Shown here piece after piece: positions 8,430 to 31,901 of a stretch of 33,035 bases of DNA; positions within the stretch are counted from its first letter, which is position 1, and the number at the start of each line of letters is the position of its first letter. The stretch lies in the NCBI GenBank assembly GCA_938030705.1, contig CALHIR010000032.1, forward strand, positions 1-33,035, written 5' to 3'. The notes under the pieces are model-generated. The model was not told the DNA's origin and made no database searches. It saw nothing but the letters and a program-made list of their open reading frames with translations. Position numbers and translations under genes: made by a program. This DNA is from Candidatus Poseidoniaceae archaeon. Lineage in GTDB: Archaea; Thermoplasmatota; Poseidoniia; Poseidoniales; Poseidoniaceae.

Positions 8430-8712
8430 GAATGAACAATCAACCAATGTTTTTCCGTTTCGGCAGCGATTTTTGGCAGGTTCGCCAGATTGTTCCACCA
8501 AATTCAGGGCAACTCTACAGACGGATATGGTTTGTTTTTTTTGATGGGAAATACACATTTCTTCTTCAAGTGATGTTCTAAAAAATGACGCTGAGTGCCT
8601 TTTTTATTCATTTTAGGTAGAGGTTATTCATATTTGATTAAACCTCCGAATTTCAAGGCCCTGGGTGGGTGTTTTTGACCATACACAGACTCATAAGCGG
8701 TACGCGAGAGCC
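8430..8712. other. A+T-rich divergent intergenic region
   Basis: The largest gap in the window, between divergent thiR and the PLP decarboxylase, and clearly more A+T-rich than its surroundings. It holds a T8 run (8535-8542) and an A6/T6 inverted repeat (8579-8585 with 8600-8606, 14-nt loop). A TATA-like stretch around 8628-8645 (CATATTTGATTAAA) would place decarboxylase transcription starts near 8660. No small ORF, tRNA or riboswitch core was recognised. In particular, no TPP-riboswitch CTGAGA core context was found. Confidence 0.5.
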
Positions 8713-10152: not shown

Positions 10153-10156
10153 ACGG

Positions 10157-12447: not shown

Positions 12448-12568
12448 GGTCTTCGCAGGGCCTTTCTTGTCATAGGCTGTTCCCTGTTTTCAGGTGGCGC
12501 GAAGCAATTCATTATGAGCGGCGCCGGCATGGATTCATCCATACCCAAACGCGTGGAGTGTGTTCATC

Positions 12569-13942
12569 ATGGTCGACCAATTACCCAACAGGGGCCGAGA
12601 AGCGGAAATGTTGCAGGAAATGGGCCTTCAATCCATGGAAGATTTATTCTCTGATATCCCTGAAAATGTCCGATTCAAAGGCGAGTTGCCGTTGCCTCCG
12701 CCCCAATCCGAGGAAGAAATTCTGAGCGATGCCCGACGATTACTCGGTTCAAACACGGCCATGGGTAGTCGCCCTTCCTTCCTCGGCGCCGGTTTGTATC
12801 GAAATTACGTGCCTGCCTCCGTGTTCCAACTCGTCACACGGGGTGAATTCTTGACGGCCTACACGCCCTATCAGCCCGAAGTCAGCCAAGGGATGCTGCA
12901 GGCCATGTGGGAATTTCAGACCCTTGTTTCCGAACTTGTCGGCATGCCCATCGCCAACCTTTCCCTCTACGATGGCTCAACCGCTGCCGCAGAGGCGTTA
13001 ACCTGCGCTGTGCGGGTGCACAACCGAAAAGCAAGCCAACCCGACACGGTGTATGTTTCGGCTCTCACACCCCCCGACAAACTCTCGGTCATGCAAAATT
13101 ACTGTCAAGGGGCTGAAATCAACATCCGATTTCTTGCCCACAACGATGACGGTACGCTGGACTTGGAAGCGCTCAAAGCAGCTGCAGGTTCTTGCGGCGT
13201 CTATCTCGAACAACCCAACCCCTTGGGTGTCTTGGATGAAGGGCTGACCGCAGTGAAGGAGATCATCGGGTCAAATACAGCCCTTATCGTCGGCGTCCAA
13301 CCTGTCTCTTTGGGCGTGGTCGAAGCACCCGGGCATTACGGTGCTGATATCGTGGTCGGCGAAGGCCAACCTTTGGGCAGCCCCGTCACCGGTGGTGGTC
13401 CACTCTACGGGATTTTTGCCTGCACGAAGCCCTACCTGCGTCTGATGCCCGGTCGCATTGTGGGCCGTTCCATCGACGTGGACGGAAAAGAGGCCTACTG
13501 TCTCACGCTTTCAACACGAGAACAACACATTCGACGGCATCGTGCCACCTCCAATATATGCACAAATGAGACGCTCATCGCTCTCATGGGAGCGATGCAC
13601 ATGGCGCTTCTCGGTCCTGACGGCTTGCGAGATTTAGCCAACCGGAACATGATGGCCTGTCAGAAGGCCAAGGAAGTGCTCGCCAAAACGCCCGGTGTCC
13701 GAGTTGTTCATGATGCGCATCACTTCAACGAATTCGCCATTGAAGTCCAGGGGTCTGCGACGGAATGCTTGGCCTACCTCGACAATAATGGGATCATCGG
13801 AGGCTTGGACCTTGGACGCTGGTACGAAGACACCACCAACCAAATTCTGGTCACCGCTACCGACCAAACAACCCTTCGGGAAATCGAGGCCCTCTCGGCC
13901 CAACTGGCGATGTGGTCATCCCACTCGGGGGTGAATGCATGA
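12569..13942 (+). CDS. gcvPA: GcvPA, glycine dehydrogenase (decarboxylating) subunit 1
   Basis: N-terminal half of the P protein, which decarboxylates glycine onto the lipoyl arm of GcvH. Recognised by FLGAGLYRNYVPASV, TAYTPYQPEVSQGMLQAMWEFQT, NLSLYDGSTAAAEA and GEGQPLGSPVTGGGPLYGIFA, all typical of the subunit 1 type. It lacks the PLP lysine, as expected, because that residue lies in subunit 2. About 457 residues is normal. The ATG at 12569 (MVDQLPN) is chosen over the GTG at 12560. The stop overlaps the gcvPB start as ATGA, so the two subunits are translationally coupled. Confidence 0.94.
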   Translation: MVDQLPNRGREAEMLQEMGLQSMEDLFSDIPENVRFKGELPLPPPQSEEEILSDARRLLGSNTAMGSRPSFLGAGLYRNYVPASVFQLVTRGEFLTAYTPYQPEVSQGMLQAMWEFQTLVSELVGMPIANLSLYDGSTAAAEALTCAVRVHNRKASQPDTVYVSALTPPDKLSVMQNYCQGAEINIRFLAHNDDGTLDLEALKAAAGSCGVYLEQPNPLGVLDEGLTAVKEIIGSNTALIVGVQPVSLGVVEAPGHYGADIVVGEGQPLGSPVTGGGPLYGIFACTKPYLRLMPGRIVGRSIDVDGKEAYCLTLSTREQHIRRHRATSNICTNETLIALMGAMHMALLGPDGLRDLANRNMMACQKAKEVLAKTPGVRVVHDAHHFNEFAIEVQGSATECLAYLDNNGIIGGLDLGRWYEDTTNQILVTATDQTTLREIEALSAQLAMWSSHSGVNA

Positions 13943-15438
13943 GCCACCTGTTCAATCATAACGGCGCTGAAAACACGGGCTACAGCCAACCCGCCCCGTT
14001 GAGCAGCGACGCCATGCCGGCCGTTCCAAAGGGGCTTGTTCGCAAAGCAGCCGCCCGTTGGCCCCGTCTCTCAGAACCCGAAATGGTGCGGCACTACACG
14101 TGGCTGTCCAAGCGCAATTTCGGCATTGACACCGGATTTTACCCGCTGGGTTCCTGCACGATGAAACACAACCCGAGGGTCAACGAAGTCATTGCACAAC
14201 TCCCAGGCATCGCCGACATTCACCCGCATCAGCCCGAGCATCATCTGCAAGGTTTGTTGTCTATTTTCTACGAGATGCAACACATGTTGGAAGTCTGTGC
14301 GGGCATGGACCAAGTCACGCTGCAACCCGTGGCGGGGGCTCAAGGGGAATTCACGGCTGTTCGCTGTATTCAGGAGTACTTCCGTCTCCGTGGAGAAGAG
14401 CAGCGAACCAAGGTCATCGTTCCTGATTCTGCTCACGGCACCAACCCCGCCAGTGCAGCCATGTCCGGGTTTGAGATCGTTGAGATTCCAAGCCTCGAAG
14501 ACGGTCGAATGGATTTGGAAGCCCTCGCTGCGGTCGCTGATGAGACCACAGCAGCGATGATGATCACCAACCCCAACACCTTGGGATTGTTTGAAGCCGA
14601 CATTAAGGCCGCCAGTGAAATCGTTCACCAAGCAGGCGGTCAGATGTACTACGACGGTGCAAACTTCAACGCCATCCTCGGCATCACTTCCCCCGGGCTC
14701 ATGGGCTTTGATGCGGTCCACTTCAACCTGCACAAGACCTTCTCCCAGCCCCATGGTGGGGGCGGCCCAGGGTCGGGCCCCATCGGTGTGAAATCTCACC
14801 TCGCTCCTTTCTTGCCAGGTCCCTTGGCGGCACGCCGAGACCCCACGCCCGGCGAATTGGCTGTCGCAGTCGACGAGCACTGGTATCATTGGGAACAGCC
14901 CGAACACAGCATCGGAAAGGTGCAACAGTGGCACGGCAACGCAGGGGCCGTGATCCGGTGTTGGGCCTACTACCGAAGGTACGGTTCTGGCCTCAAAACG
15001 ATGTCTGAGCACGCTGTGCTCAACGCAAATTACCTTCGGCACGCCATTCATAGGGAGGCCAAGAAAGCAGGCGTTGACCATCTCTTTGTCGACGGAGCCG
15101 AAACCGATGTGGCCAAGCATGAATTCACGCTTTCCATGCAACCGGCGAAGGAAGCATTGGGTGTTTCCGCCATGGACGTGGCCAAAGGCCTGCTCGACCG
15201 CGGCTACATGGCGCCCACGGTCTACTTCCCGCTGGTCGTTCCAGAGTGCATGATGATCGAGCCGACAGAAACGGAGTCAAAAGACACCCTCGATACCTTT
15301 GCTGAGCATTTCGCTCAAGTGTTGAGGACCGAGCCCGAAGCGCTTCATGAGGCGCCCATCACCACGCCGGTCAGGCGGGTTGACGAGGTCTATGCGGCGA
15401 GAAACCTCTGTCTGCGCCATCCCTACGACGATGCATGA
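13939..15438 (+). CDS. gcvPB: GcvPB, glycine dehydrogenase (decarboxylating) subunit 2
   Basis: PLP-binding half of the split P protein. The Schiff-base lysine is in NLHKTFSQPHGGGGPGSGP (K266), followed by the glycine-rich PLP and substrate loop. Other family landmarks are FYPLGSCTMKHNPR near residue 75, LQPVAGAQGEFTA, DSAHGTNPASAAMSGF and MMITNPNTLGLFE. The start at 13939 (MSHLFNH) gives an ATGA overlap with gcvPA; the earlier in-frame ATG at 13912 lies inside gcvPA. At 499 residues it is of typical length. It is followed at once by a small membrane protein gene overlapping its end. Confidence 0.94.
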   Translation: MSHLFNHNGAENTGYSQPAPLSSDAMPAVPKGLVRKAAARWPRLSEPEMVRHYTWLSKRNFGIDTGFYPLGSCTMKHNPRVNEVIAQLPGIADIHPHQPEHHLQGLLSIFYEMQHMLEVCAGMDQVTLQPVAGAQGEFTAVRCIQEYFRLRGEEQRTKVIVPDSAHGTNPASAAMSGFEIVEIPSLEDGRMDLEALAAVADETTAAMMITNPNTLGLFEADIKAASEIVHQAGGQMYYDGANFNAILGITSPGLMGFDAVHFNLHKTFSQPHGGGGPGSGPIGVKSHLAPFLPGPLAARRDPTPGELAVAVDEHWYHWEQPEHSIGKVQQWHGNAGAVIRCWAYYRRYGSGLKTMSEHAVLNANYLRHAIHREAKKAGVDHLFVDGAETDVAKHEFTLSMQPAKEALGVSAMDVAKGLLDRGYMAPTVYFPLVVPECMMIEPTETESKDTLDTFAEHFAQVLRTEPEALHEAPITTPVRRVDEVYAARNLCLRHPYDDA

Positions 15439-19242: not shown

Positions 19243-19251
19243 CCTTTATCA
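19243..19251 (-). promoter_or_regulatory. TATA-like box for tRNA-Asn
   Basis: On the minus strand TGATAAAGG lies 21-29 bp upstream of the tRNA-Asn 5' end. It overlaps the stop codon of the upstream nucleoside phosphorylase gene, so the tRNA probably has its own promoter at the end of the long minus-strand array. Confidence 0.45.
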
Positions 19252-20580
19252 CGCCTTCGTTTCAGTGGAATCAATCAATTCAACCAAACGAGGGGAGCGG
19301 CCCGGTTTGTTTTCGCTGATGGTTGCGATGGATTTCAGCTCATGGAGGTCATCCGAGGAGAGTTCACGGGTGTGGAAAAAGGTGAACAATGGTTCATTTT
19401 TCTTGACTTCAACCCCTCGTGTAGCGTCGAGAAGAAACCCGATCAACGGATCGATTTCATCCTCGAGAGCAAAGCGGCCCGCCCCGTGCCTTCGGGCAAG
19501 TTGAGCCATCTTCATCGCGTCGTATCCCGCCACAAACCCATCATTTTGAGCGAGAGCAGTGGTTTGTTCGGCCGCAGTTCCCAACACCTTTTCTGGGGTG
19601 TTGATGAGGGTGGCTGCAACCTCCTTGGAAACGCCCTGTTGCACGCACATCTTGCGAAAGACCTCCAAGGCCTCGCCGTTGTTCAGCACCTTTTCCATGC
19701 GGCGTCGTCCCTCCTCCGTGTCCACGTTGTCAAAGGTCATCGAAAGCAAGGCTGCACCCTGCATCACGACCAGTTCACGGGTGTCGGGAGAACCTTGTCC
19801 CTTCAAGACCAAAATACTCCCCAGCACTTCGAGGGCGTTGCCAATGTGGGTCCCGATGGGTTCGCTCATCGAGGTGATTTGTGCCATGGTCCGAATGCCG
19901 AGGCCTTCGGCGGTTTTGACCATGGAGTTGGCAAGTGTTCGGGCATCCTCAACGGTTTGCATGAAAGCGGCCGAACCCGTCTTTACGTCCAATACGAGCG
20001 CATCCAACCCCTCCGCTGCTTTTTTTGAAACGATGGATGCCGTGATGAGCGGTACACTGTCAATGGTATGGGTGACGTCCCGAAGGGCGTAAAGAACGCC
20101 GTCAGCAGGAGCGATGGCTTCGTTTTGGACCGCAATGCAGCAGCCAACCTCTTTGACGGCGTCCATCATCTCTTCGGGCGAAAGGGCGCAATTGAATCCA
20201 GGAATTGCCTCCAACTTGTCAATGGTTCCACCCGTGTGGCCCAGGCCACGTCCCGCCAACATGGGTACTCGACAGCCGGCCGCTGCCAGTGCGGGTGCCA
20301 ACATCAGCGACATTTTGTCGCCCACTCCCCCTGTGCTGTGCTTGTCCACAACAGGTGGTCCCTCTGGCCACGTTAACCGTGCGCCGGAGTCGATCATGGC
20401 GTTGGTCAACACCACGATGTCATCCACCTCGCAGCCGTGTTGGTGCACGGCCCTCAGCCATCGCGTGGCGTCTTCGGTGGAAACACTTCCATCTGCGACT
20501 TTGGCGACAAACGTTTCCAAATCGCTTCGGTTTTGTCGTTGTCCGTTGTTCACGGCGTCGATGAGCGCATCAAGGTCCAT
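19249..20580 (-). CDS. deoA: Pyrimidine-nucleoside / thymidine phosphorylase (DeoA family)
   Basis: Splits thymidine or uridine with phosphate into base and (deoxy)ribose-1-phosphate. Family signatures: VVDKHSTGGVGDKMSL (phosphate-binding), GRGLGHTGGTIDKLEAIPG, LYALRDVTHTIDS, ASIVSKKAAEGLDALVLDVKTGSAAFM. At 443 residues it lacks the extra N-terminal domain of archaeal AMP phosphorylases (about 500 residues), so a nucleoside substrate is favoured. It is the last gene of the minus-strand array, 9 bp after the oxygenase. Its position downstream of a putative surface nuclease suggests salvage of deoxynucleosides. Confidence 0.9.
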   Translation of the reverse strand: MDLDALIDAVNNGQRQNRSDLETFVAKVADGSVSTEDATRWLRAVHQHGCEVDDIVVLTNAMIDSGARLTWPEGPPVVDKHSTGGVGDKMSLMLAPALAAAGCRVPMLAGRGLGHTGGTIDKLEAIPGFNCALSPEEMMDAVKEVGCCIAVQNEAIAPADGVLYALRDVTHTIDSVPLITASIVSKKAAEGLDALVLDVKTGSAAFMQTVEDARTLANSMVKTAEGLGIRTMAQITSMSEPIGTHIGNALEVLGSILVLKGQGSPDTRELVVMQGAALLSMTFDNVDTEEGRRRMEKVLNNGEALEVFRKMCVQQGVSKEVAATLINTPEKVLGTAAEQTTALAQNDGFVAGYDAMKMAQLARRHGAGRFALEDEIDPLIGFLLDATRGVEVKKNEPLFTFFHTRELSSDDLHELKSIATISENKPGRSPRLVELIDSTETKA

Positions 20581-20589
20581 GTCAAGGCC

Positions 20590-21537
20590 TCAGATCAATC
20601 CGATTTCTTTCAAGCGTTGGTGGAGGTAATCCCCTGCGGTGATGGAGGCGTAGTCAACGCTGCCGCTCGTCATCGCCACAAAGTCAGGGTGAGGGGTCAA
20701 GTCAATTTCGTTGCGAGGATGCACAAACATGGGCATTGAATACCGACGCGTGTTGCTGTCTTTTGGATTGACCACTCGGTGTGTGGTGGATTTGAACAAC
20801 CCGTTCGTGAGGTTCTGAAGCATATCGCCAGAATCCACGATGATGGCGTCTTGATCACCTTGAACCTGAATCCATGAGCCGTCGTGGTCCATCACTTCCA
20901 ATCCATCCGCTGTGGCTGTGACCAAGAGCGTGATGAAATTGATGTCCTCGTGAGCAGCTGACCGTACGGCACCCTCCGGAGTGTCTTCACCGAGTGGAGG
21001 GTAGTGGATCATCCGCATGATGGTGTTGCCTTCATGTGACATGTTTGGCAACCAGTCTGCTGGTTTGCCGAGGTAGAGGGAGCAAGCCGAGAGAAGATGT
21101 TGGGCCAAGGATTCCATGCTGGAGAATAAGGATTCAGTCGTCTCTTGGAACCCGCTGACATGGGCCGTGGGCCAGATGTTCTTCGGGTAGGTTGGCTCGG
21201 TGCCGTCCTTGGGATAGGGTCGTCCAGTTTGCCAAAATTCCTTGAGGTCGGGTGCAGGGTTGTCTTTCGCGTGTTCAACGCCGAAGGCGGTATAGCCTCG
21301 TTGGTGGCCGATGTTGGGTTGAAGGTAGGTACGTTTTGTCTCTTCTTCAAGGTCAAAAAATGAATCACACCTCGCATACGTTTCGTCGATAAGGGTGCGA
21401 GGAATGCCGTGGTTGGTCAACGCAAAGAAGCCAATATCCTTGAGCGCATCACCGACTTGGTCAACAAAACTGGCCCGTTCCTCGGCCACTTCAGAGGTGG
21501 CCAATTGAAAGTCAATGGACGGGATGGACCTGGACAT
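20590..21537 (-). CDS. Fe(II)/2-oxoglutarate-dependent oxygenase, isopenicillin-N-synthase-like family
   Basis: Non-haem iron oxygenase of the double-stranded beta-helix type. Iron ligands: HED in SAAHEDINFITLL (H196, D198) and the distal His in FKSTTHRVVNP (H253). The 2-oxoglutarate-binding Arg-x-Ser is in RRYSMPMF about ten residues later. The N-terminal part (SIPSIDFQLA, LKDIGFFALTNHGIP) matches the DIOX_N region of this superfamily. At 315 residues it is of usual length. The substrate cannot be deduced. It sits 6 bp from the Bax-inhibitor gene and 9 bp from deoA, so a role in nucleoside or base oxidation is possible, but only by association. Confidence 0.87.
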   Translation of the reverse strand: MSRSIPSIDFQLATSEVAEERASFVDQVGDALKDIGFFALTNHGIPRTLIDETYARCDSFFDLEEETKRTYLQPNIGHQRGYTAFGVEHAKDNPAPDLKEFWQTGRPYPKDGTEPTYPKNIWPTAHVSGFQETTESLFSSMESLAQHLLSACSLYLGKPADWLPNMSHEGNTIMRMIHYPPLGEDTPEGAVRSAAHEDINFITLLVTATADGLEVMDHDGSWIQVQGDQDAIIVDSGDMLQNLTNGLFKSTTHRVVNPKDSNTRRYSMPMFVHPRNEIDLTPHPDFVAMTSGSVDYASITAGDYLHQRLKEIGLI

Positions 21538-21543
21538 GGAACT

Positions 21544-22308
21544 TCATTCCCTGAAGGCTTGGAGTTTCGACAGAAGACGGAGGGTTTCGATGTATATCCA
21601 CACGATGGACACCAGTATGCCAAAGGCAGCGTACCATTCCATGTTCTTTGGAGCACCGTAGCGAGAGCCTGATTCAATGAAGCCAAAGTCGCTGATCAAG
21701 GTCAAAGCGGCCACGATCAAAATGAACGTCGTTACGCCGATGCCGATGGGCCCTGAACTGTGAAGGAAGGGGACATCGTAGCCCGTGAAAAGTTGGAGGA
21801 CAAAGGACGTGAGGTAGAGGAACACGATGCTGATGACCAAGCCGCCGACGACCTTGTTGAAGGCCGGCGTAGGGCGGATGATGCGTGAGGTGTACATCAC
21901 GTACATCGTGGCGGTAATGGCCATGGTTCCAAACACGGCCTGGAGCGCAATGCCCTTGTAGGCCGTCAATTCGAGGGCAAGCGACATGGCACCGACCGCC
22001 ATGCCCTCAAAGAGCGCATAGAGGCTCATGAGGGCTGCAGGATTCTTTGGTCGGGACATAAACACGACCATGGCAATGATGAACCCGCCAATGAAACCAA
22101 GTCCCATGAACGCGGTGATGTAGAGGCCACCGTTGCCGTTGTTGATGGCGTTTAGGCACAAAACGGCGGATATGAGGGCGCTGACAACCGTGAGACTGAG
22201 GAGGTAGCCAATTTTACGTAGGCTCCCCTCGATGGTCATCCGGTCGTTTCCGGTCAAGTTGCTCCAAAATTTTTGATTGAGGACAGGATTGCTGCTTCGA
22301 ATCTCCAC
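21544..22308 (-). CDS. Bax inhibitor-1 / YccA-family membrane protein
   Basis: About seven hydrophobic segments in 254 residues, for example YLLSLTVVSALISAVLCL, FMGLGFIGGFIIAMVVFM, GVTTFILIVAALTLISDF and WYAAFGILVSIVWIYIETL. The N-terminus VEIRSSNPVLNQKFW matches the RTSNPVLNEK-type start of YccA/BI-1-like bacterial proteins, which fixes the start at GTG 22308. The longer open frame to 22413 overlaps the upstream gene and is rejected. The family includes pH-sensitive calcium-leak channels, but the function in archaea is unknown. It lies 32 bp downstream of the giant surface protein and 6 bp before the oxygenase. Confidence 0.83.
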   Translation of the reverse strand: MEIRSSNPVLNQKFWSNLTGNDRMTIEGSLRKIGYLLSLTVVSALISAVLCLNAINNGNGGLYITAFMGLGFIGGFIIAMVVFMSRPKNPAALMSLYALFEGMAVGAMSLALELTAYKGIALQAVFGTMAITATMYVMYTSRIIRPTPAFNKVVGGLVISIVFLYLTSFVLQLFTGYDVPFLHSSGPIGIGVTTFILIVAALTLISDFGFIESGSRYGAPKNMEWYAAFGILVSIVWIYIETLRLLSKLQAFRE

Positions 22309-22340
22309 GGGTATCAGTCGTTTCTCGGCAAGGTCCCGTT

Positions 22341-25300
22341 TCAATGTTGCTCTTCTTGACCGTGATTGACCACTTGTTCTTGGTAGTAGGTGGCCAACTG
22401 GTCCATCGTCCAACCTTGGAGCAAGTATTGCTCAACCATCTCGGCGGTCCAACCGGGGACCTGAGCTAACATGTCTGGCGTCACATCGCTGTTTCCGGTG
22501 CCGTCCAAGACGGGTTGTTGCCAGTCTTGGTTGTTCACGGGCGTGGTGACCACATCGGCAAAGGCCGCTTCGCTAATGGCGTCCTTCATCTCCTCGGATT
22601 CGTTTTTCATGCCGCGGAGGACAACAAACGCTCCACCAGAAAGCAAGAGGGCCAGCACCATCAGAATCATGAAGAACGATTGGGCAGAATCACCTGTCGT
22701 GCTTTCCGAACTGTCCTCGACGAGGTCAGCTCGCTGCTGAGATGAACACCCGTTGCTGTCGGTGGCTACTCCGGCCGGCGTGTCGGGACATTGGTCATCC
22801 TCATTTCGAATGCCATCGTCATCGTCGTCGATGCTGACCACCGTGTTGTTTTCGCCGGGTGTGATGTCCACGCCAGCCAAATCACAACCGAGGACTTCAC
22901 TGTCGTTTTGTCCATCATCATCGGCGTCCCACATGGAGATGGCTGCACTGGGTGTGATGGTTTGCAGGTTTGTGTTGAGAGCACTGGCTTGGGCCCAAGC
23001 GACCTCCAGTCCATCAGGAATGCAATCGCCATCGGTGTCAGCGGTGTTGGGGTCGCCCCCGTGAAGTTGCTCGGCGTAGTTGGAAAGCCCGTCGTCATCG
23101 TTGTCCATGAGCGACTCGTCGGCGGAGGCCTCCCCCGAAACGCTTCGCTGGGTTCTGTTCAGGCCGTGCAACACTTCCCACTTGTCAAGCAGTCGGTCCT
23201 GGTCAGTGTCGGTGGTGTTATCCAAACGATTCCAATCCTCGTACCATGAATCAATGTAAACTTGGGCCACGGACGTGCTCGAAAGCATAAGGCCCATCTC
23301 GCGGTTGCGAACAAGGGCAGAATCGCCCCAGTTGATGGACGAGACCAGCACGTGTTCTCCGTCGATGATGATGCCTTTGTTGTGCAACTTGGTGACTTCT
23401 TCATCGCTGCTCATCACGACGGCCGAGGTGTCGTAGCCCATGGTGAAATTCCATTCTTCGTTGAATCGGTCAACAACGCTCTGGATATCCTCATCAAGGT
23501 AGGCGCCGTTGAGGATCAATCGGAGACGTACGTTGCGTTGGGCTGCATTTTCCAATGCTTCCACGATGGGATTGTCGCCCCAACCCCAGGACCAGTCCAT
23601 GTCAAGGTATTGGAGGGAGAGCAAAATTTCGGACTCTGCACCGTCCAGCGCCTTCACCAGTTCATCAATGCAGTTGTCTGGGCACACGAGAAGGGTGGCT
23701 TCGAAATCGCCTTCGATTCCAGTGGCCGTCTGGCCGATGACGGAACTGGATTCCGGCATGCTCCAGCCGGTCGGGGCGTCGGAGGCCAAAACCGGCGTAA
23801 CGTGGTCTTTTGCCTCGTTCTCATCAAACGCAAGGTGGTTGAGCACCATCGTCGCGAGGTTGTCGTCTTGGACGATGACGCCCCAGTCCCGGTTGCCTTC
23901 ATTACCCGGGATTGGATGAGAGGATGCCTTCCAGTTTCCTGAACCAATCCAAACGCTTTCGTTGTCCCGAACGGCGACTTTGCTGTGGATGTAGGCGTAC
24001 GGGTTCTCTCCCGTGTCGCCAAACCACTTGACATCAACGCCGGCGGCGAGTAAGGTCGTCGCCATGCCTCGTTGGGTGTCGAGGTCGTATTGATTCCACC
24101 AATTATCGCCGTAATCCAAAACCACATTGACGTCCACTCCACGGTTTTGCGCATCGATCATCGCTTCAACCAAATGCACCTCGTGAAGCAAATACATGTG
24201 GACATGCAGGGAGGTTGTGGCCCCGTCAATCCAGGCCAAAAGGTCGGTAAGTCCGTAGGCAGGGCCGATGAGTGGCGTGATGGTGCCGTTCGCTGCCGTG
24301 GTGGTGTCGAAGCAGAAGGTGCTGCCGCCAAGACGACTCCACTGCTCATGCCAGTCGGCCACGGTGTTGGTATCCGGTGTATCACCGCAACCGCTACCGC
24401 GAAGGTAAATCAAATTGTCAAGATTGGACAAGGGTTCGGCCAGCGCAATACCGCTCCAACCTGAAACGGAGACAGGGCCGTTGCCGTAGACCAGTGTGTC
24501 CACTTCCGCTCCGCTGCCATCAAACAGTTGCAGGGCTGCGCCTGAGTTCGGGAAGTAGAAATTCCTGTCCAGTGCGCCATCCACATCAACGACGTTGCCG
24601 TCTTCGTAAACACCAAGGGCATCAGCATCGTTGGCCAGGAGGGTGGATGATCCGGGTTGAATCATCAGGTTCGTGATGGTGGCGTTGTACATGCTCATGG
24701 CACCGGTAGTCGTGCGAAGCGTCCAACCGTTGAGAACAGCCAACTTGTCGCCCTGATTCGTCACTTCAATGAATTCCATGTCGCTGGAAATCCCGGTGGA
24801 CCCCGAGGGCATGAAGCGTGTAAATCGCACGTCTTCCTTGTCGGCAAAGTTGGTCGGGTCCGGTTCGGCTTGACCGGGCGTTGGCCAGAGGGTGTGTTCC
24901 CAATCATCGCTGGCTTGATCGCCAGGCATCAGCGTTTGGCAGTCCGTGATGACCACCCATGCAGCGCTGGTTATGATGTCGCCGTCGGGATTGAGCAATT
25001 CAAACGCATCACCCAAGCCCGTGAGCATGAATTCCTCCATCGTGAACACGGCGCGCTCGTCGGGTTGGAGCATGACCTGAGCGGTCTGGTTTTCATCCAC
25101 CCATAGGCTGTCCATTCGTATGAATCGCCGGTCGCCATCTGCGGTGAGCACCGACCAGCGACTGATGTTGAGGGGTGTTACTCCTTGGTTGTGAACCTCC
25201 ACCCAATCTTCAGTTGGTTCAATAGAGTCGTCGTTACAATAGGGCAGGACTTCAGTGATGGCCAGTTCCGTTGAACCGGTGTAGGCCGGCCAGACCGGGT

Positions 25301-27227
25301 TGACCTCTCCGGGTGTAGCCCAAGCAGCGAGTATCCAGTTGCCGGTGGCGTTGCTGGCGTTGGGGCCAACGCCCGCATGCGTGCTGTTTGGGGCGACAAG
25401 CGATTCACCTTCGACGGTGTTCGTCCATGCGATGGTGTCGACGGCCGATCCGGAAGCATCGACCAGACCGATGGAATCGGACGAGGTGTGCTTGAGGTAG
25501 AAACTGCTGGTTCCATTTAAGGCAATCAGCACCGCTTCACCACCCTTGACCATGGTGGTCTCCTGCAATGGCATGTTGTGTTCGTGCAGGGTAAGGGAGC
25601 GCGAAGCCGCTTGTAATTTCCAACCGGCCAAATCCACATCGGTCGTCCCGTAGTTGTGCAGTTCAATCCATTCGCCGTTCGGCCAAGTTTGGCTGTCAGA
25701 GCCGACAGCGTCGGGGAGAATCTCTGAGAAGCGAACGGTGGTTGAGGACGGCGTGGAACCGGGTTCAGGCTGGCCTGGAGTTTTCCATGCGGCTGGCGTC
25801 CACGGGTCCACGGGATTGCTTCCACGAATCAACGCCATGTCTTCGCCGTAATCGGTGGTGTAATCGGCAGTATCCACCACTTGCTCGGAAACGTCTCGCA
25901 GGAAAAGGTGGTTGTAATTGTCCCACAGCTCGGTGTGGCTCGTGAACTGAACCAAGCGTCGTTCGTCGGGGTCGATGACGGTTGACCCCTGGCTAGCGTT
26001 GAACACGAGGGTGCCCGGGTCGAGAAACGTCAAGTTGCCCATGCCGTCCATGATGCTCCAACCCATGAGGTCGATGGAGCCGCTCCCGATGTTGTGAAGT
26101 TCAATCCATTCGCCATCGGGGAAGGCCTGTCCATCGTTGGTTGCATTGGCGAGAATTTCGGTCATCTGCACGTCGCCAACTTGTCGGGGCATGAGTTCCA
26201 TGGGCAACGGGTTCATCGCCTCAGGCGTGGGATAGGGGGCGTTGGCCCACGGGGCGCTGGACTGTGCGGCGACCATCAATGAGAATCCCTGAACCGTTGA
26301 AGTCCAGGAAATTTCCTGCGATCGGCTGCCGTTGGGCCACTTGAGGGTCAAGCTTTCCACACCGTTGTTCAACACGCCGTAACCGCTGGTGGCGTTGACG
26401 GCGACAATACGGTGCTGGCCGGGGGTGATCAGCATGGATTGCGAAGCATTGACGAGGTGTGAGGCGTTGAAGGGGAGGACATTGCCAGCGGCATCCTCAA
26501 GGGTGTAACCCGTCAAATCAAGGTCGCTGCTTCCCGTGTTGAGAATCTCAACCCATTCACCGCCGGGCCATGATGCGTTGTCATAGGATGGCCAGGAATT
26601 GGCCATGACTTCGGTGATGATGAGGTCGCCCGGAATGAGGTTGTTGCTCACCGTCGCTGAATTGACTTGACCAGGAGTGGGGTTGTTGGTCTGAATCCAA
26701 TTGGCGGTTGAGCTTGTTGGGTCTTGTTCGTAACTCTTCCCAGACAGGACCGTTCCCCAAGTGGCTTGATGCAAGTTGTTGTTGCTGCTGTCGACCAAGG
26801 TCATGCTCATGCCCGTGTTGGTCAAGTAGAAGTTGTTGTCTCCATTTCTTGCAATAACCACGTATTCACCGGGGCTGATGGTCCATGTGGAACTGTTACT
26901 TGCTTGATATCCTACGATGGTGTTGGCATCAAAATCGAGGGTTTTCGAGGCACTTGTGGTTACTTTCCAGCCCGTCAAGTCCACGTCAGATGTACCGCTG
27001 TTGTAAAGTTCAAACCATTCGCCATCGGGGTAGGTTCCGGCGTCGAGACCGTTCGGATTCGGGATGACTTCGTTGATGCAGACATCTCCCGTACAGGCGG
27101 TTGAGCGTCCAGTGGTTTGGTGTGTATCCTCGCTCTCCTGAAGCACAGGGGCCAAGGGTGAGGCCAACGAGAGGAGGAATAAGAGCATCAGGCTGGTGGC
27201 GGTTAGGGTCGTTTTCATGCGTTTCAC
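22341..27227 (-). CDS. Giant surface protein: six lamin-tail-like repeats, two PLD/HKD domains, Ca-binding repeats, C-terminal membrane anchor
   Basis: 1,628 residues. A signal peptide (about 1-28, SLMLLFLLSLASPLAP) leads to six repeats of about 150 residues starting near 48, 200, 352, 497, 655 and 800. Each resembles a lamin-tail domain (for example ITEVMANS, PGGEWVEILNTG, DLDLTGYTLEDAAGN). Two phospholipase D/nuclease-like domains follow: YIHSKVAVRD with GSGNW near 1080, and KLHNKGIIIDG with SSINWGD near 1280, each an HxKx4D motif. Asp-rich thrombospondin-3-like repeats (DNDDDGLSNYAEQ, DTDGDCIPDGLE, DDDDDGIRNEDDQCPD) precede a helix (FMILMVLALLLSGGAFVVL, ~1520) and a ~95-residue tail, presumably cytoplasmic. 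An anchored extracellular nuclease or phospholipase is likely. LTD domains accompany secreted nucleases in bacteria, which favours DNA. The start is ATG at 27227. Confidence 0.87.
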   Translation of the reverse strand: MKRMKTTLTATSLMLLFLLSLASPLAPVLQESEDTHQTTGRSTACTGDVCINEVIPNPNGLDAGTYPDGEWFELYNSGTSDVDLTGWKVTTSASKTLDFDANTIVGYQASNSSTWTISPGEYVVIARNGDNNFYLTNTGMSMTLVDSSNNNLHQATWGTVLSGKSYEQDPTSSTANWIQTNNPTPGQVNSATVSNNLIPGDLIITEVMANSWPSYDNASWPGGEWVEILNTGSSDLDLTGYTLEDAAGNVLPFNASHLVNASQSMLITPGQHRIVAVNATSGYGVLNNGVESLTLKWPNGSRSQEISWTSTVQGFSLMVAAQSSAPWANAPYPTPEAMNPLPMELMPRQVGDVQMTEILANATNDGQAFPDGEWIELHNIGSGSIDLMGWSIMDGMGNLTFLDPGTLVFNASQGSTVIDPDERRLVQFTSHTELWDNYNHLFLRDVSEQVVDTADYTTDYGEDMALIRGSNPVDPWTPAAWKTPGQPEPGSTPSSTTVRFSEILPDAVGSDSQTWPNGEWIELHNYGTTDVDLAGWKLQAASRSLTLHEHNMPLQETTMVKGGEAVLIALNGTSSFYLKHTSSDSIGLVDASGSAVDTIAWTNTVEGESLVAPNSTHAGVGPNASNATGNWILAAWATPGEVNPVWPAYTGSTELAITEVLPYCNDDSIEPTEDWVEVHNQGVTPLNISRWSVLTADGDRRFIRMDSLWVDENQTAQVMLQPDERAVFTMEEFMLTGLGDAFELLNPDGDIITSAAWVVITDCQTLMPGDQASDDWEHTLWPTPGQAEPDPTNFADKEDVRFTRFMPSGSTGISSDMEFIEVTNQGDKLAVLNGWTLRTTTGAMSMYNATITNLMIQPGSSTLLANDADALGVYEDGNVVDVDGALDRNFYFPNSGAALQLFDGSGAEVDTLVYGNGPVSVSGWSGIALAEPLSNLDNLIYLRGSGCGDTPDTNTVADWHEQWSRLGGSTFCFDTTTAANGTITPLIGPAYGLTDLLAWIDGATTSLHVHMYLLHEVHLVEAMIDAQNRGVDVNVVLDYGDNWWNQYDLDTQRGMATTLLAAGVDVKWFGDTGENPYAYIHSKVAVRDNESVWIGSGNWKASSHPIPGNEGNRDWGVIVQDDNLATMVLNHLAFDENEAKDHVTPVLASDAPTGWSMPESSSVIGQTATGIEGDFEATLLVCPDNCIDELVKALDGAESEILLSLQYLDMDWSWGWGDNPIVEALENAAQRNVRLRLILNGAYLDEDIQSVVDRFNEEWNFTMGYDTSAVVMSSDEEVTKLHNKGIIIDGEHVLVSSINWGDSALVRNREMGLMLSSTSVAQVYIDSWYEDWNRLDNTTDTDQDRLLDKWEVLHGLNRTQRSVSGEASADESLMDNDDDGLSNYAEQLHGGDPNTADTDGDCIPDGLEVAWAQASALNTNLQTITPSAAISMWDADDDGQNDSEVLGCDLAGVDITPGENNTVVSIDDDDDGIRNEDDQCPDTPAGVATDSNGCSSQQRADLVEDSSESTTGDSAQSFFMILMVLALLLSGGAFVVLRGMKNESEEMKDAISEAAFADVVTTPVNNQDWQQPVLDGTGNSDVTPDMLAQVPGWTAEMVEQYLLQGWTMDQLATYYQEQVVNHGQEEQH

Positions 27228-27236
27228 GTCCGAGTT

Positions 27237-28739
27237 TCAAATGAATCCAAAGCTGTCGAATTTCTGTGCAAAAGTGTAGATCATGATGGGTACGAGGATG
27301 ATGCCCATACCGTGTGAGCGTCGTATGCCAATACGGGGTGGTAGCAGGCCAATGATGGTGCCGACGATGAGCACGCCAATGCCAACAAAGCCCGTTGAGA
27401 GCCAAACCAAGGCGACAACGAAGAGAATGACGCCCATGACCATTTGCTGGAGAGGAATCGCTGCGTGCAGACGGAGCATACCTCTTCCGACATAGCGCAT
27501 CATGGGCATGGCCAGCAAACCTGCCGCTAAGGTGACCGCCAGGAGACGGATGAAATCGCTGGTTGGCTCAAGCGAAGACCACGTCTCAATGGGGTACATC
27601 ATCTTCAACGCCAGCGTGGCGCCGGAACGAGAACGGCTGATGATGTAAAGGAAGCCAAGAACCATGACCGTAACTGCTGTATTGGTCGCCGAGAGCAAAG
27701 CAATCACTTCCAAGTCTTGCTTTGTTTGTGGACCTTCGACGCCTTCTTCGGCTTCAGCCTTTGCGATTTCGAGCAGTTCATCGTCGCTGAGTTCCGTGAG
27801 ACGACGCGTCTCCCAATCCATGCCGTACCCTTGCTTTCCTTGTGCTTTCGCAGCGAGGTTTCGACCACCCATCACCAACACCGTGGCTTGTGAGGCTGTC
27901 ATGCCTGGAAGTACGCCCATGGACGCTCCTGCAACACTTGACCAGAAACACGGCACCACGAGCGGGCGAACGGGTGGTAGTGCCCAATTCTCTCGCTGTG
28001 GAGGGAGGTGTGAGGTCGTGGCGTAAATGTCCAAAAGGTTGGCGATGCCGAACAATCCAGCGAGGCTCGGCAGGAGCAGGCTGGCGTCTGGCATGCCGAT
28101 GGGTGAGCGTGCAGGCAGGGTAAACACACCCCATCCGTAAAGTCCAGCCAGCAAGAAAAAGGCCGTTGCAGCGAGGAAACCCGCAAACCGTGAATCCCGG
28201 CCAAGGCGTCCGCCGGTCAACCTCTGCATCCACATCGGCCAATCCAAACGTGTGGTTTCGGTGGCGAGTAAAAGAAATGAAATGGTCAACAGCACGAAGG
28301 GAAGAACTGAGCGCAGGTTGTCGTACCAACCCAGCTCAGGTCCAAAGGCGATGCGAGCCAAAACGATGAGCGGTAAGGAGAGAAACAAACCCAGCTGGGA
28401 GCCGCGGGCCGACCAAGCAACGCCCCGCGCAGCATTGCCGGAGAGTAACATACGGTGGCCGGGAAGCAGTGAGAGAGCCGTGTCACCATCGGGCGCGCCG
28501 ATAAGTGCTGACGGGATGTAGTTGAGGAACGTGTGGACGGTACCGGTCGAGACGATGATGGCCGCCACGGACGCGAGTGGAATGCCCAAGTCGAGCAAAG
28601 CAGGCGAGAGTGCGAGGAGAATCAATGCGACGTTGTTCACGTGAAAACCCGGAATGAGTCCGGTCAAGGAACCGAGCATGACCCCAAAGAACAGGGCGCC
28701 CAATAACCACGCCAAGTCCAAAAAATACCCTTCGAGCAA
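27237..28739 (-). CDS. TctA-like (archaeal DUF112-type) membrane permease
   Basis: About 11-12 hydrophobic segments in 500 residues. The internal duplication typical of the TctA superfamily is visible as two matching loops, GSLTGLIPGFHVNN near residue 25 and GASMGVLPGMTASQA near 270. IPSALIGAPDGDTALSLLPGH matches the archaeal subgroup. Bacterial TctA works with a binding protein on tricarboxylates, but archaeal members' substrates are unknown. The only start is TTG at 28739: an in-frame TGA, the stop of the upstream gene, lies three codons before it. It sits 9 bp from both neighbours, an OB-fold surface protein and the LTD-PLD protein, and so probably transports something these two process. 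Confidence 0.83.
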   Translation of the reverse strand: MLEGYFLDLAWLLGALFFGVMLGSLTGLIPGFHVNNVALILLALSPALLDLGIPLASVAAIIVSTGTVHTFLNYIPSALIGAPDGDTALSLLPGHRMLLSGNAARGVAWSARGSQLGLFLSLPLIVLARIAFGPELGWYDNLRSVLPFVLLTISFLLLATETTRLDWPMWMQRLTGGRLGRDSRFAGFLAATAFFLLAGLYGWGVFTLPARSPIGMPDASLLLPSLAGLFGIANLLDIYATTSHLPPQRENWALPPVRPLVVPCFWSSVAGASMGVLPGMTASQATVLVMGGRNLAAKAQGKQGYGMDWETRRLTELSDDELLEIAKAEAEEGVEGPQTKQDLEVIALLSATNTAVTVMVLGFLYIISRSRSGATLALKMMYPIETWSSLEPTSDFIRLLAVTLAAGLLAMPMMRYVGRGMLRLHAAIPLQQMVMGVILFVVALVWLSTGFVGIGVLIVGTIIGLLPPRIGIRRSHGMGIILVPIMIYTFAQKFDSFGFI

Positions 28740-28748
28740 ATGATCGCC

Positions 28749-30500
28749 TCATGTCTGCCCGTTTGCATGTTCTTCTCGGTCGCCGATACCGTCATCGTCG
28801 CTGTCTTCTGCATACGGTGAGCTGCCGATGTTCTCTTCGAGTGTATCGCCCAAGCCATCGCCGTCGCTGTCAAGGACATCGGCTTGGTCCAGCGTGTAGA
28901 CCAAACTCATCCCATCCTCACTTTGGACCTGGCGCAAGCGTCCAGCCCACGTCATGGATTGATTGGCATGATATTCGTCCACGCCGATGGCCTGGCCCTG
29001 GAGATTCAACTCCACGGATTCGTTTGAACCGTCCCGGAAGAGGTGCCACTTGCCGTCGGTGAATTCTGCACGACCGTTCAGCAGAACATTTTGGTCCCTC
29101 GCATAACTCCACTGAGTTGCTCCGTCATCCCAAAGCAAGGTCCTTGACGCAGGAACCGTCCCGAGAGTGTAATCGTGGATTGTCAGGCGAATTCGCATGT
29201 CTTCGTCGTCCCATCCAACCGAGACGTTCGCGATGATGTTCTGCCCCGATTCAAGCCAGGCGTTTCGTGGGCCGGGTACGGTGACGGCAACGGTGGTCCA
29301 CCCAGGGGAGTAGGCGGCTGAATCAACAATGAACGCTTCCTCGTTTTCCACACCGGGTTCCACGGCGTATTTGACATAGGCAGAAAGGGTGTATGTCGAG
29401 TCTGGATCAGCCACCATACCGACAGGATCGGCGGAGAGCATGGCCAACAAACTGATCGGTGTTTCGGGATTCACCAGTGTGGGAGCGTCTCCTTCGTTGG
29501 CGTCGATGCACCAACCGGCTTCCGTTTCCGACCACATCAGTCGCCCTTCAACCGTTTGCAACGTGTTGTGGATGGATTCCGTGGCGTCGGCTTGACGGTC
29601 CTCATCGGTTGGAAGCACACAAATCGACGTTCCGGTTGGTCCGTACAACGCCCACTCCTCGGGGGATATGTCCATCACGCCCGTCATGGTCACCGTTTGC
29701 CCGGATTGGTAACTCCACGTGGCTTGTGCGTTCCAGTCCAGTTGAGGGATGTTGACGACGTGGTTTCGGTCAACGAGGATTTCCGGTCCTTGCACCTGCA
29801 AACTCCAACGAAGGTCTCGCTGTTGGTAGGTGAGGATGCCTTGAACCTCCACTTTCGAGGTCGCTTCAATCCATTCGCCCTTGGCTGAGCGAATGATAAG
29901 GTGCATTTGATGTTCGGAATTTCCGTAGTTTGGATGGTCTCCAAGATAGGCTGACGTGAAGGTGGCGTCCGGCGTGATGGATTTGCTGATGAATCCCGTT
30001 AATTGTATGACTTTGCCCATATAGCCGGCTGGGTCTTGAGCGACATCGGCAATGGCGAGAATTTCAACGTCGGGTAGGTCATCGGCCGACCATTCCATGG
30101 CTCCTGCGCCAAGGGATTGAATCCATACTCGGCCGTCGTATTCAATGACATCGCCCATCACGGTCACGGTGGTGCCAATCGGCGGCATGTTCCCGGGTCT
30201 GTACCATCTTGATTCCACGACGCCGGTTCCGTCATCGATGATGGCGTCCACTCGGTCGTCGCCGGATGCGTACGGGTCCTCCACCCAAGAAATCAGGGTG
30301 CCTTCAATCTTCACCACCTCATTCTTGTACTCCAGCAATTGCCGGACTTCGATGACCTCGGGTTCTCGAACGTAAGCATACCAGTTGAGCGTTGCGACGA
30401 GGAACATTGCGAGCGCAAACATGACCCACAACTGCTGACCTCGTGTTTCGGGGTCATCATTCGTGATTTTGTCCATCAGGCCCTTCACGGCATCCGCCAT
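28749..30500 (-). CDS. Membrane-anchored extracellular protein with OB-fold-like repeats and C-terminal Ca-binding repeats
   Basis: After a short charged N-terminus there is one membrane segment (about residues 23-40, WVMFALAMFLVATLNWYAYV), then ~520 residues presumably outside the cell. Beta-rich units resemble nucleic-acid-binding OB folds: VVKIEGTLISWV..AIIDDGTGVVESRWY..TTVTVMGDVIEYDGRVWIQ (about 60-125), KVIQLTGFISKS..VEVQGILTYQQRDLRWSLQV (about 160-240), and a third at about 265-340. The end carries thrombospondin-3-like Asp repeats (DSDGDGLGDTLEE, DSDDDGIGDREE), as in the LTD-PLD protein. The ATG at 30500 is preferred to a TTG at 30521. It is the first gene of the array. It may bind DNA or RNA at the surface; OB folds can also bind sugars or proteins. 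Confidence 0.7.
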   Translation of the reverse strand: MADAVKGLMDKITNDDPETRGQQLWVMFALAMFLVATLNWYAYVREPEVIEVRQLLEYKNEVVKIEGTLISWVEDPYASGDDRVDAIIDDGTGVVESRWYRPGNMPPIGTTVTVMGDVIEYDGRVWIQSLGAGAMEWSADDLPDVEILAIADVAQDPAGYMGKVIQLTGFISKSITPDATFTSAYLGDHPNYGNSEHQMHLIIRSAKGEWIEATSKVEVQGILTYQQRDLRWSLQVQGPEILVDRNHVVNIPQLDWNAQATWSYQSGQTVTMTGVMDISPEEWALYGPTGTSICVLPTDEDRQADATESIHNTLQTVEGRLMWSETEAGWCIDANEGDAPTLVNPETPISLLAMLSADPVGMVADPDSTYTLSAYVKYAVEPGVENEEAFIVDSAAYSPGWTTVAVTVPGPRNAWLESGQNIIANVSVGWDDEDMRIRLTIHDYTLGTVPASRTLLWDDGATQWSYARDQNVLLNGRAEFTDGKWHLFRDGSNESVELNLQGQAIGVDEYHANQSMTWAGRLRQVQSEDGMSLVYTLDQADVLDSDGDGLGDTLEENIGSSPYAEDSDDDGIGDREEHANGQT

Positions 30501-30518
30501 GTGTCCGGCTGACAAAAG

Positions 30519-30534
30519 CAACGCTTATGCGTTG
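30519..30534. promoter_or_regulatory. 16-bp inverted repeat in the divergent promoter region
   Basis: CAACGC (30519-30524), TTAT, then GCGTTG (30529-30534) form perfect 6-bp arms. The site starts 19 bp upstream of the minus-strand OB-fold gene ATG, with the divergent HD-hydrolase start 66 bp away. A TATA-like ATAAG is part of the site. It could be an operator for the minus-strand array, but repeats this short also arise by chance. Confidence 0.3.
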
Positions 30535-30599: not shown

Positions 30600-31901
30600 A
30601 TGAACGGTAGAGACCGCGTGATTCGCGACGAGATTCACCGGGATATCTTGGTGCCCGCATCGCATGCAGGCATCATTGACACACCTGAATTTCAACGTCT
30701 TCGAGCCATCCAGCAACTCTCCACATGCGAGTATGTTTTCCCTGCGGCGACCCACAATCGGTTCGCGCACTCCCTCGGAGCGTACCACCTGGCGGGCCGA
30801 TTGGCCGCTCATCTTCAGGAAGTTCATCCGGGATTGCTCTCAAAAGACGACGAAGAACTCGTTCAACTCGCCGCTCTGCTCCACGATATCGGTCATCCGC
30901 CTTACTCCCACCTGCTCGAGACGCCTCGTGTTTACGCCACTTTCCGCTCGCACGAGGCTTGGGGGCGCGATATCCTTGAATCCCCAAACACCGCCATCGG
31001 ACAAGCCGTTCGGGCAACCGTTGGTGAACAACGCCTCGGGCGCCTCTTTGCACTCATGGACGGGCAGGATGCCCACGATGGTGCCCCCATTCCACGGTTC
31101 TTGAAGGAAATCGTGAGCAGCCAATTGGACGTTGATCGCATGGATTACATGATCCGAGACCAGGCCAACACGGGGGCGCAAATTGGAGGTTTTGACAGCG
31201 CCAGAGTCATTCGTGCGCTCCGTGTGGGTGATGATGGCCGAATGTATGTCAAACGGTGGGGCCTTCCTGCCATTGAAGCCTATCTGGTCACCCGGTATCA
31301 CATGTACCAGCAAGTGTACTTCCACAAGGTCAACATGCTGACGCAAGCCTATCTGGTCAACATGCTTGAACGTGCTCGTGAATTGGCAAAAACCGGGAAA
31401 TTGGACCTTTCCAACGAACTCTCCCACATGTTGCTGAACGAACAACTTTCTCCAGAGGAATACGTCCTCCTCAACGACGCTCACATCAAGGTCGCTTTAC
31501 CATCATGGGCGAACCATGAAGATGCACGCTTATCCGGCTACGCCAACCGCTTGCTGTCGAGGAAAGATTTCCACAAATCCCTACGAATTGACCATTTGAC
31601 CGTGGAAATGTGCGATATTGTTCTTCCTCGGCTCGAAGAGCAGCTAAAGGAAGGTGGTTATGACCCTGAGTTGGATTTGATTCAAGCGACCATCAGCAAG
31701 CGGGGCTACCTCCCCTATGACACCGGTATCGTCCTTGAAGATGGACGAGATGCGTCGGAACATTCTGCTCTCATACGGTCGCTGGCGCAGCCGCACGAAC
31801 GCTGTTTGATTTTCGTTCCCGAAGCGGTTCGGGATGAAATGGAGCGGAACGTGCGCGAGTGGATCAAACCCTCGCAATCATCCTTGGCTCAATTTGATTG
31901 A
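30600..31901 (+). CDS. HD-domain phosphohydrolase (dGTPase-like / YdhJ-type)
   Basis: Metal-dependent phosphohydrolase. HD-superfamily residues: FQRLRAIQQLS and THNRFAHSLGAYHLAG with the first His, LLHDIGHPPYSHLLE with the HD pair (H95, D96), and SSQLDVDRMDYMIRD with the distal Asp. These motifs (QRLR, HSLG, DVDRMDY) are those of dNTP triphosphohydrolase relatives and the COG1078 group. At 433 residues it matches COG1078 length. Likely substrates are dNTPs or other nucleotides. It is transcribed away from the OB-fold/PLD array, with a 99-bp shared promoter region. The start at ATG 30600 fits the TATA position. Confidence 0.87.
   Translation: MNGRDRVIRDEIHRDILVPASHAGIIDTPEFQRLRAIQQLSTCEYVFPAATHNRFAHSLGAYHLAGRLAAHLQEVHPGLLSKDDEELVQLAALLHDIGHPPYSHLLETPRVYATFRSHEAWGRDILESPNTAIGQAVRATVGEQRLGRLFALMDGQDAHDGAPIPRFLKEIVSSQLDVDRMDYMIRDQANTGAQIGGFDSARVIRALRVGDDGRMYVKRWGLPAIEAYLVTRYHMYQQVYFHKVNMLTQAYLVNMLERARELAKTGKLDLSNELSHMLLNEQLSPEEYVLLNDAHIKVALPSWANHEDARLSGYANRLLSRKDFHKSLRIDHLTVEMCDIVLPRLEEQLKEGGYDPELDLIQATISKRGYLPYDTGIVLEDGRDASEHSALIRSLAQPHERCLIFVPEAVRDEMERNVREWIKPSQSSLAQFD

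Follow-up and report, generated by a model that had tools for sequence, protein, structure and literature searches.

Gene content of the operon

Six minus-strand open reading frames (ORFs) occupy positions 19249-30521 of contig CALHIR010000032.1 (33,035 nucleotides, all of which was analysed and is called here the window), which is contig 32 of a 2.0-Mb Candidatus Poseidoniaceae genome (assembly GCA_938030705.1). In gene order, they encode an anchored protein with predicted OB folds (the OB protein), a TctA-like permease, a giant surface protein with lamin-tail (LTD) and phospholipase D-like (PLD) domains, a Bax-inhibitor-1-like protein (BI-1), a 2-oxoglutarate (2OG)-Fe(II) oxygenase and a DeoA-type phosphorylase (Table 1). 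The ORFs are separated by 9, 9, 32, 6 and 9 bp, as reported in an initial annotation made from the sequence of this DNA. These gaps presuppose the GTG start of BI-1 at 22308; the longest BI-1 ORF (TTG at 22413) would run into the giant gene.

Four of the six genes (OB, TctA, giant and DeoA) were found to form a conserved core. This operon of Poseidoniales joins a pair resembling one required for transformation in Methanococcus maripaludis to a nuclease-like surface giant and a thymidine phosphorylase, and suggests that the cells feed on sea-water DNA.

Table 1. Features of the operon and of its divergent neighbour in the window
Feature	Position (strand)	Characteristics
OB protein	28749..30521 (-)	Alternative starts TTG 30521 / ATG 30500; short Asp-rich tail
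OB protein, membrane anchor	~30369-30431	N-terminal
OB protein, OB folds	~28866-30344	Five, in tandem, predicted
TctA-like permease	27237..28739 (-)	PF01970, E 7e-42; proposed DNA import channel by analogy (PMC10133366)
Giant surface protein	22341..27227 (-)	Signal sequence; six LTD stretches; two PLD domains; Asp-rich repeats
Giant, HKD motif 1	23964..23987 (-)	H1081, K1083, D1088
Giant, HKD motif 2	23361..23384 (-)	H1282, K1284, D1289
Giant, C-terminal membrane helix	~22617-22673	Followed by a short cytoplasmic tail (predicted topology)
BI-1	21544..22308 (-)	Membrane protein; GTG start; PF12811; operon member in family f1, outside the conserved core
2OG-Fe(II) oxygenase	20590..21537 (-)	DIOX_N/2OG-FeII_Oxy type; operon member in f1 and in genus g14
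DeoA	19249..20580 (-)	Thymidine/pyrimidine nucleoside phosphorylase type
HD-domain phosphohydrolase	30600..31901 (+)	dGTPase-like; PF01966 and PF19276; divergent neighbour of the operon
f1 and f2, families of Poseidoniales (see below).

Conservation of the core in Poseidoniales

A common set of 96 Poseidoniales genomes was searched for each protein (E limits: 1e-5 for TctA, OB and BI-1; 1e-20 for 2OG, DeoA and giant). Two families were distinguished in this set, f1 and its sister family f2 (48 genomes each), probably Poseidoniaceae and Thalassarchaeaceae. Matches were found in 80 genomes for TctA, 80 for OB, 88 for BI-1, 77 for DeoA, 73 for the giant and 49 for 2OG. All pairs located on the same contig keep their strand and order and lie less than 12 kb apart: OB before TctA (76/76), TctA before the giant (67/67) and the giant before DeoA (56/56). 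For these counts, one piece per genome was retained when a gene was split over contigs, and a second copy in genome G051 was dropped. The linkage of OB, TctA and LTD/PLD genes, whose absence would have counted against the initial annotation, is thus conserved.

Forty stretches were read for gene order. The order is OB-TctA-giant-BI1-2OG-DeoA in f1 and OB-TctA-giant-DeoA in the f2 genus g16; genus g14 has the latter order with a 2OG gene in addition. In g12, g15, g17 and g19, TctA and the giant are separated by a CD36-like gene, and DeoA is followed by an acyltransferase-like gene. The CD36-like gene has the same place in the g11 loci read, the giant being elsewhere. The order of the core genes therefore persists across families with different inserted genes.

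The core genes are generally present or absent together. All four were found in 30 of the 48 f2 genomes, none in 13 and some in 5. In genus g11, they are spread over three contigs in G028 and all missing from G001 and G048. General gene loss does not account for the joint absences, because BI-1 is retained in 11 and CD36-like genes in 12 of the 13 f2 genomes devoid of the module. The genomes are metagenome-assembled (79-97% complete), so that single absences carry little weight. A loss of the giant in genus g4 was considered and withdrawn: the intervening stretch reads N in both g4 loci fetched. The four g4 genomes with TctA enter the counts as genomes without a giant match.

The core thus comprises OB, TctA, giant and DeoA. 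The initial annotation had included BI-1 and the 2OG oxygenase in the array. Both are peripheral: BI-1 because it is on a different contig from TctA in 31/31 f2 genomes having both and is kept in most genomes lacking the module, 2OG because only about half of the genomes (see above) carry it.

The genes could also be mere neighbours in a stable region of the genome, without a common task; gene order is indeed also kept for the flanking HD and GMP synthase genes in part of f1. The joint absence of the four genes in 13 f2 genomes where BI-1 and CD36-like genes mostly persist, and an order that survives between families differing in their inserted genes, make this explanation highly improbable.

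Some loci have particular features. G051 (C57, C1) carries two copies each of OB, TctA and giant that differ in their identity to the window (mixed bin or two operons). A record titled Deltaproteobacteria bacterium AH-558-G13 (L145) contains OB, TctA and giant genes of the Poseidoniales type and is probably mislabelled or mixed. In G025 (g4; L060:5319-9364), the genes directly after TctA encode a PHO4 phosphate transporter, a protein with a PhoU domain (weak match to MazE) and a TauE-like protein.

OB protein and TctA-like permease

The OB protein has a single hydrophobic N-terminal segment. It has no Pfam match, and its best sequence match in the PDB has an E value of 0.18. An AlphaFold model built with 26 relatives (mean predicted local distance difference test, pLDDT, 83.1; predicted template modelling score, pTM, 0.58) displays five barrel-like repeats behind one anchor. 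Foldseek matches of this model include HIN-200 with DNA (2e-11), RPA, CST and telomere proteins; such matches are expected of any tandem OB protein, and low TM-scores of 0.10-0.18 (by query length) reflect a different arrangement of the repeats. Distant relatives match PF01336 or PF12869, and some have sub-threshold matches to DUF4131, which is the OB domain of ComEC (PMC12455585). According to the model, the Foldseek matches and the Pfam matches of distant relatives, the first protein is identified as an OB-fold protein, in agreement with the initial annotation.

The TctA profile matches 138 of the 194 genomes of the phylum. The association of OB and TctA was surveyed in 80 loci of named genomes (80 of 534 confirmed stretches, no Methanococcus among them), 72 of which have room upstream of TctA. 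An OB gene lies directly upstream in 51 of these 72 loci: 25 belong to the long-OB Poseidoniales type (one labelled Deltaproteobacteria), and outside that type the proportion is 26/47. At E 1e-3, the OB profiles, to whose construction some of these genomes contributed, match 0 of 3030 other ORFs. According to these profiles, an OB gene is missing upstream of TctA in the two Alkanophaga-type loci.

A transposon screen in Methanococcus maripaludis identified two genes encoding an OB-fold protein with one membrane helix (MMJJ_13020) and a TctA-like protein with 11 helices (MMJJ_13030). Deletion of either gene abolishes natural transformation, which is rescued by complementation in trans; a secreted thermonuclease is also required, and T4 filaments are essential. 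A TctA homologue is required for transformation in Methanoculleus thermophilus. The TctA-like protein was proposed by the authors to be the DNA transporter (PMC10133366).

The permease of the window had initially been assigned to import of the cut products. DNA itself is the more likely cargo, because M. maripaludis loses transformation when either one of its adjacent OB and TctA-like genes is deleted (PMC10133366). Alternatively, TctA could carry an organic acid, with the OB protein binding the substrate or acting as a regulator; the linkage would then reflect a cell that scavenges organic matter in general. Carboxylates are the cargo of the TTT family, and earlier comparative work suggested the same for archaeal TctA (PMC5898192). 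In many archaea, moreover, the OB-TctA pair has a different gene neighbourhood. The operon genes include no TctB or TctC (Pfam and NCBIfam; operon only, the rest of the genome not having been searched for them). The phenotypes of the two methanogens are transformation defects (PMC10133366), and OB folds, a nuclease-like domain and a thymidine phosphorylase all indicate nucleic acids. Transport of an organic acid is thus considered unlikely.

LTD/PLD giant protein

The giant (1628 amino acids) matches LTD PF00932 in six stretches and PLDc_2 PF13091 in two. Both HKD motifs noticed initially are intact; their H, K and D do not vary in two alignments, of 20 and 17 sequences, that have some genomes in common. 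The sequence profile of the PLD part matches the Nuc endonuclease (5e-16), PLD6 (9e-13; PDB name cardiolipin hydrolase), NucT (1e-12) and a phospholipase (1e-9). The NCBIfam models DrmC and NucT match the giant below their cut-offs. NucT has been implicated in purine salvage and transformation (PMC5714352). In the structural comparison (PLD model: pLDDT 88.6, pTM 0.90), Foldseek ranks a phospholipase D first, followed by PLD3 and PLD4 with 18 of the 20 best chains.

Judged from the profile matches, the PLD domains are likely nuclease domains. The nuclease-like character claimed by the initial annotation is supported by sequence profile (Nuc, PLD6, NucT) and less clearly by fold, whose first-ranked match leaves room for a preference for lipids. 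The giant could then be a surface phosphodiesterase acting on phospholipids or other phosphodiesters, the operon scavenging phosphorus from lipids of dead cells. Besides the top Foldseek match, the presence of two HKD domains in the same chain, which Nuc and NucT do not have, and the PHO4 and PhoU-like genes adjoining TctA in one g4 genome (L060) are consistent with this. Conversely, the profile ranks three proteins, Nuc, PLD6 and NucT, above the phospholipase; PLD3 and PLD4, which dominate the structural matches, are nucleases with two HKD domains; and DeoA and the OB protein would be out of place in the use of lipids. Lipid scavenging is therefore regarded as quite improbable.

DeoA

DeoA carries PF00591 and PYNP_C domains. 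It scores 433.5 bits against the NCBIfam thymidine phosphorylase model NF004490 (cut-off 269) and 371 against the stricter TIGR02643, under the cut-off of 570.7; ten relatives also exceed the NF004490 cut-off. By these profile matches, DeoA is a thymidine/pyrimidine phosphorylase, as initially annotated. In G031 (g1; L053:12434-13705), a DeoA of the g3/g4/g7 lineage is found at the usual place whereas TctA stays with g1 (FastTree, support values not shown). A phosphorylase seems to be wanted at this position of the operon, since DeoA seems to have been exchanged in place. DeoC was tried as a marker of deoxyribose use and rejected: PF01791, which matches 96/96 genomes, is uninformative because it also covers other aldolases.

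ComEC and type IV filaments

Archaea are not known to have ComEC. The ComEC competence domain PF03772 was found in 0/96 Poseidoniales genomes (positive in 10/14 control genomes). The T2SSF filament platform was found in 48/48 f1 genomes and in 11 of the 34 f2 genomes with TctA; the other 23 carriers have no T2SSF match. Filaments being essential in methanogen transformation, these 23 carriers point to another use or a pilus-free mechanism, or argue against simply transferring the function. Together with DeoA, they favour feeding.

The module could nevertheless serve primarily for natural transformation (gene exchange), DeoA merely clearing stray deoxynucleosides. The phenotypes in Methanococcus and Methanoculleus are transformation defects (PMC10133366), and all f1 genomes have T2SSF. 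The f2 carriers devoid of T2SSF argue against this, as does DeoA, which is co-present or co-absent with the other core genes in 43/48 f2 genomes. Gene exchange is considered an unlikely primary purpose, although possible as a by-product.

Proposed function

Import and use of DNA by the operon core, with feeding as the main purpose, is the preferred interpretation (probability about 0.6). We infer DNA as the substrate transported in Poseidoniales and the following order of steps. The anchored giant would hold and cut DNA at the cell surface and hand it over, as strands or fragments, to the anchored OB protein and its TctA-like partner. This pair would constitute a DNA importer of the kind essential for transformation of M. 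maripaludis. Intracellular DeoA would then split pyrimidine deoxynucleosides derived from the imported DNA. The cells probably use the DNA chiefly as a nutrient (phosphorus, nitrogen, carbon, bases); recombination may be a by-product. The use of extracellular DNA claimed by the initial annotation is thus still the best reading; the role of the permease and the membership of two genes have changed.

Several observations weigh against this interpretation. The kinship of the OB-TctA pair of the window to MMJJ_13020/MMJJ_13030 is putative, proposed from family, order and topology. The 23 carriers devoid of T2SSF weaken a direct transfer of function from M. maripaludis as much as they favour feeding. 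The ranking of the structural matches of the PLD model does not separate DNA from lipid as substrate. The mature OB part and the PLD part are acidic (isoelectric point, pI, 4.17 and 4.16; 4.05 to 9.83 for other proteins of the operon or window), which disfavours DNA binding; hindrance by acidic surfaces has been discussed for a salt-tolerant DNase (PMC4486849). No OB gene lies upstream of TctA in 21/72 loci, and in other Thermoplasmatota the pair is also found with neither the giant nor DeoA. The analysis traced neither a 5'-nucleotidase nor a nucleoside carrier nor a route for deoxyribose, and the DeoC test was silent.

A more specific proposal is tentative and rather less probable than the general one: OB-TctA would be the archaeal counterpart of ComEC, i.e. 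a split importer working as a filament-free feeding machine, with the giant capturing and cutting DNA and the thymidine phosphorylase catalysing the first catabolic step, whole DNA being eaten. If true, one of the most abundant archaeal groups of the surface ocean eats whole DNA without type IV filaments; among surface planktonic archaea, Poseidoniales have been described as the most abundant (PMC8821943).

One genetic study implicates an OB and TctA-like pair in archaeal DNA uptake (PMC10133366). The operon provides independent comparative evidence that OB-TctA handles nucleic acid, because the pair is tied to, and co-present or co-absent with, a nuclease-like giant and a thymidine phosphorylase. 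It becomes testable whether OB-TctA takes in DNA for feeding or for gene exchange, and whether Poseidoniales have a role in the turnover of dissolved DNA and its phosphorus.

Peripheral and neighbouring genes

BI-1 matches BaxI_1 PF12811 with an E value of 1e-61. The 2OG oxygenase has DIOX_N and 2OG-FeII_Oxy domains. It keeps the Fe and 2OG ligands of thymine-7-hydroxylase: H196, D198, H253, R265, S267 and Y179 correspond to H214, D216, H271, R286, S288 and Y194 (reference residues from PMC4787775; numbering offset of 2 in the alignment). Assignment as a thymine-7-hydroxylase was rejected: two of six thymine contacts are kept (F292, R190), and four other PDB sequences score higher. The changed contacts, from thymine-7-hydroxylase to the 2OG oxygenase, are Y217 to I199, N87 to Q79, E122 to Q103 and N294 to H273.

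The HD gene was found in 33 fetched loci, and its place is the same in 13 of the 15 f1 loci taken by place. Its product matches an NCBIfam dGTPase subfamily under the cut-off and would fit the theme, by making deoxynucleosides, if it is a dNTPase. Elsewhere, positions 8665-15438 of the window contain a glycine-cleavage T gene and two P-type genes, a PLP decarboxylase-like gene lying upstream; the group is ordinary in appearance.

The CD36-like proteins (L032:5915-8587, P0007; ~900 amino acids) have the two-helix layout of CD36 scavenger receptors and match PF01130 (E 3e-8, above the cut-off); no sequence match was found in the PDB up to E 1. Relatives occur in 85/96 Poseidoniales genomes, often with several matches per genome. 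A role as a module part replacing the filaments was rejected in view of this distribution, which includes most genomes without the module. In the f2 locus L032, the gene right after DeoA (12941-14023) encodes an acyltransferase-like membrane protein (PF01757, PF07786); genes of similar length are found there in other f2 loci.

Comparison with known systems

The open PubMed Central literature, searched for this operon and for DNA uptake in Poseidoniales, yielded no description of the operon. The initial statement that no archaeal system with this set was known needs a limit, the OB-TctA part having been described before in M. maripaludis (PMC10133366).

In Candidatus Izemoplasmatales, DNA-degradation loci likewise include a large LTD nuclease among extracellular nucleases linked to import and catabolism genes; these loci are bacterial and have ABC transporters for the products instead of an OB-TctA pair (PMC8289736). 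LTD thermonuclease Hvo_1477 of Haloferax volcanii, needed for growth on DNA, is also a surface protein with a lamin-tail-like domain. It is a 327-amino-acid lipoprotein with a thermonuclease domain and no linked importer described in the accessible sections (PMC3929857), whereas the giant of the window is a PLD protein of 1628 amino acids. The giant shares the PLD superfamily with NucT of Helicobacter pylori and the Salmonella plasmid nuclease Nuc (PMC5714352). Nuc and NucT are small proteins with a single HKD domain in each chain, against two in the chain of the giant.

As in bacterial ComEC with EndA-type nucleases (PMC12455585), an OB domain, a membrane channel and a nuclease would be brought together, and distant OB relatives have weak DUF4131 matches. 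Unlike in ComEC, the parts are separate proteins, the nuclease-like part belongs to the PLD superfamily, and the ComEC competence domain is missing from the 96 genomes. The pair resembles MMJJ_13020/MMJJ_13030: an OB gene with one membrane helix is followed by a TctA-family gene, and the archaeal TctA comes without TctB and TctC. Many Poseidoniales carriers differ from M. maripaludis in having no T2SSF platform; the OB protein of the window differs from that of the MMJJ pair in its five predicted OB folds and its Asp-rich tail, and the operon adds the LTD/PLD giant and DeoA.

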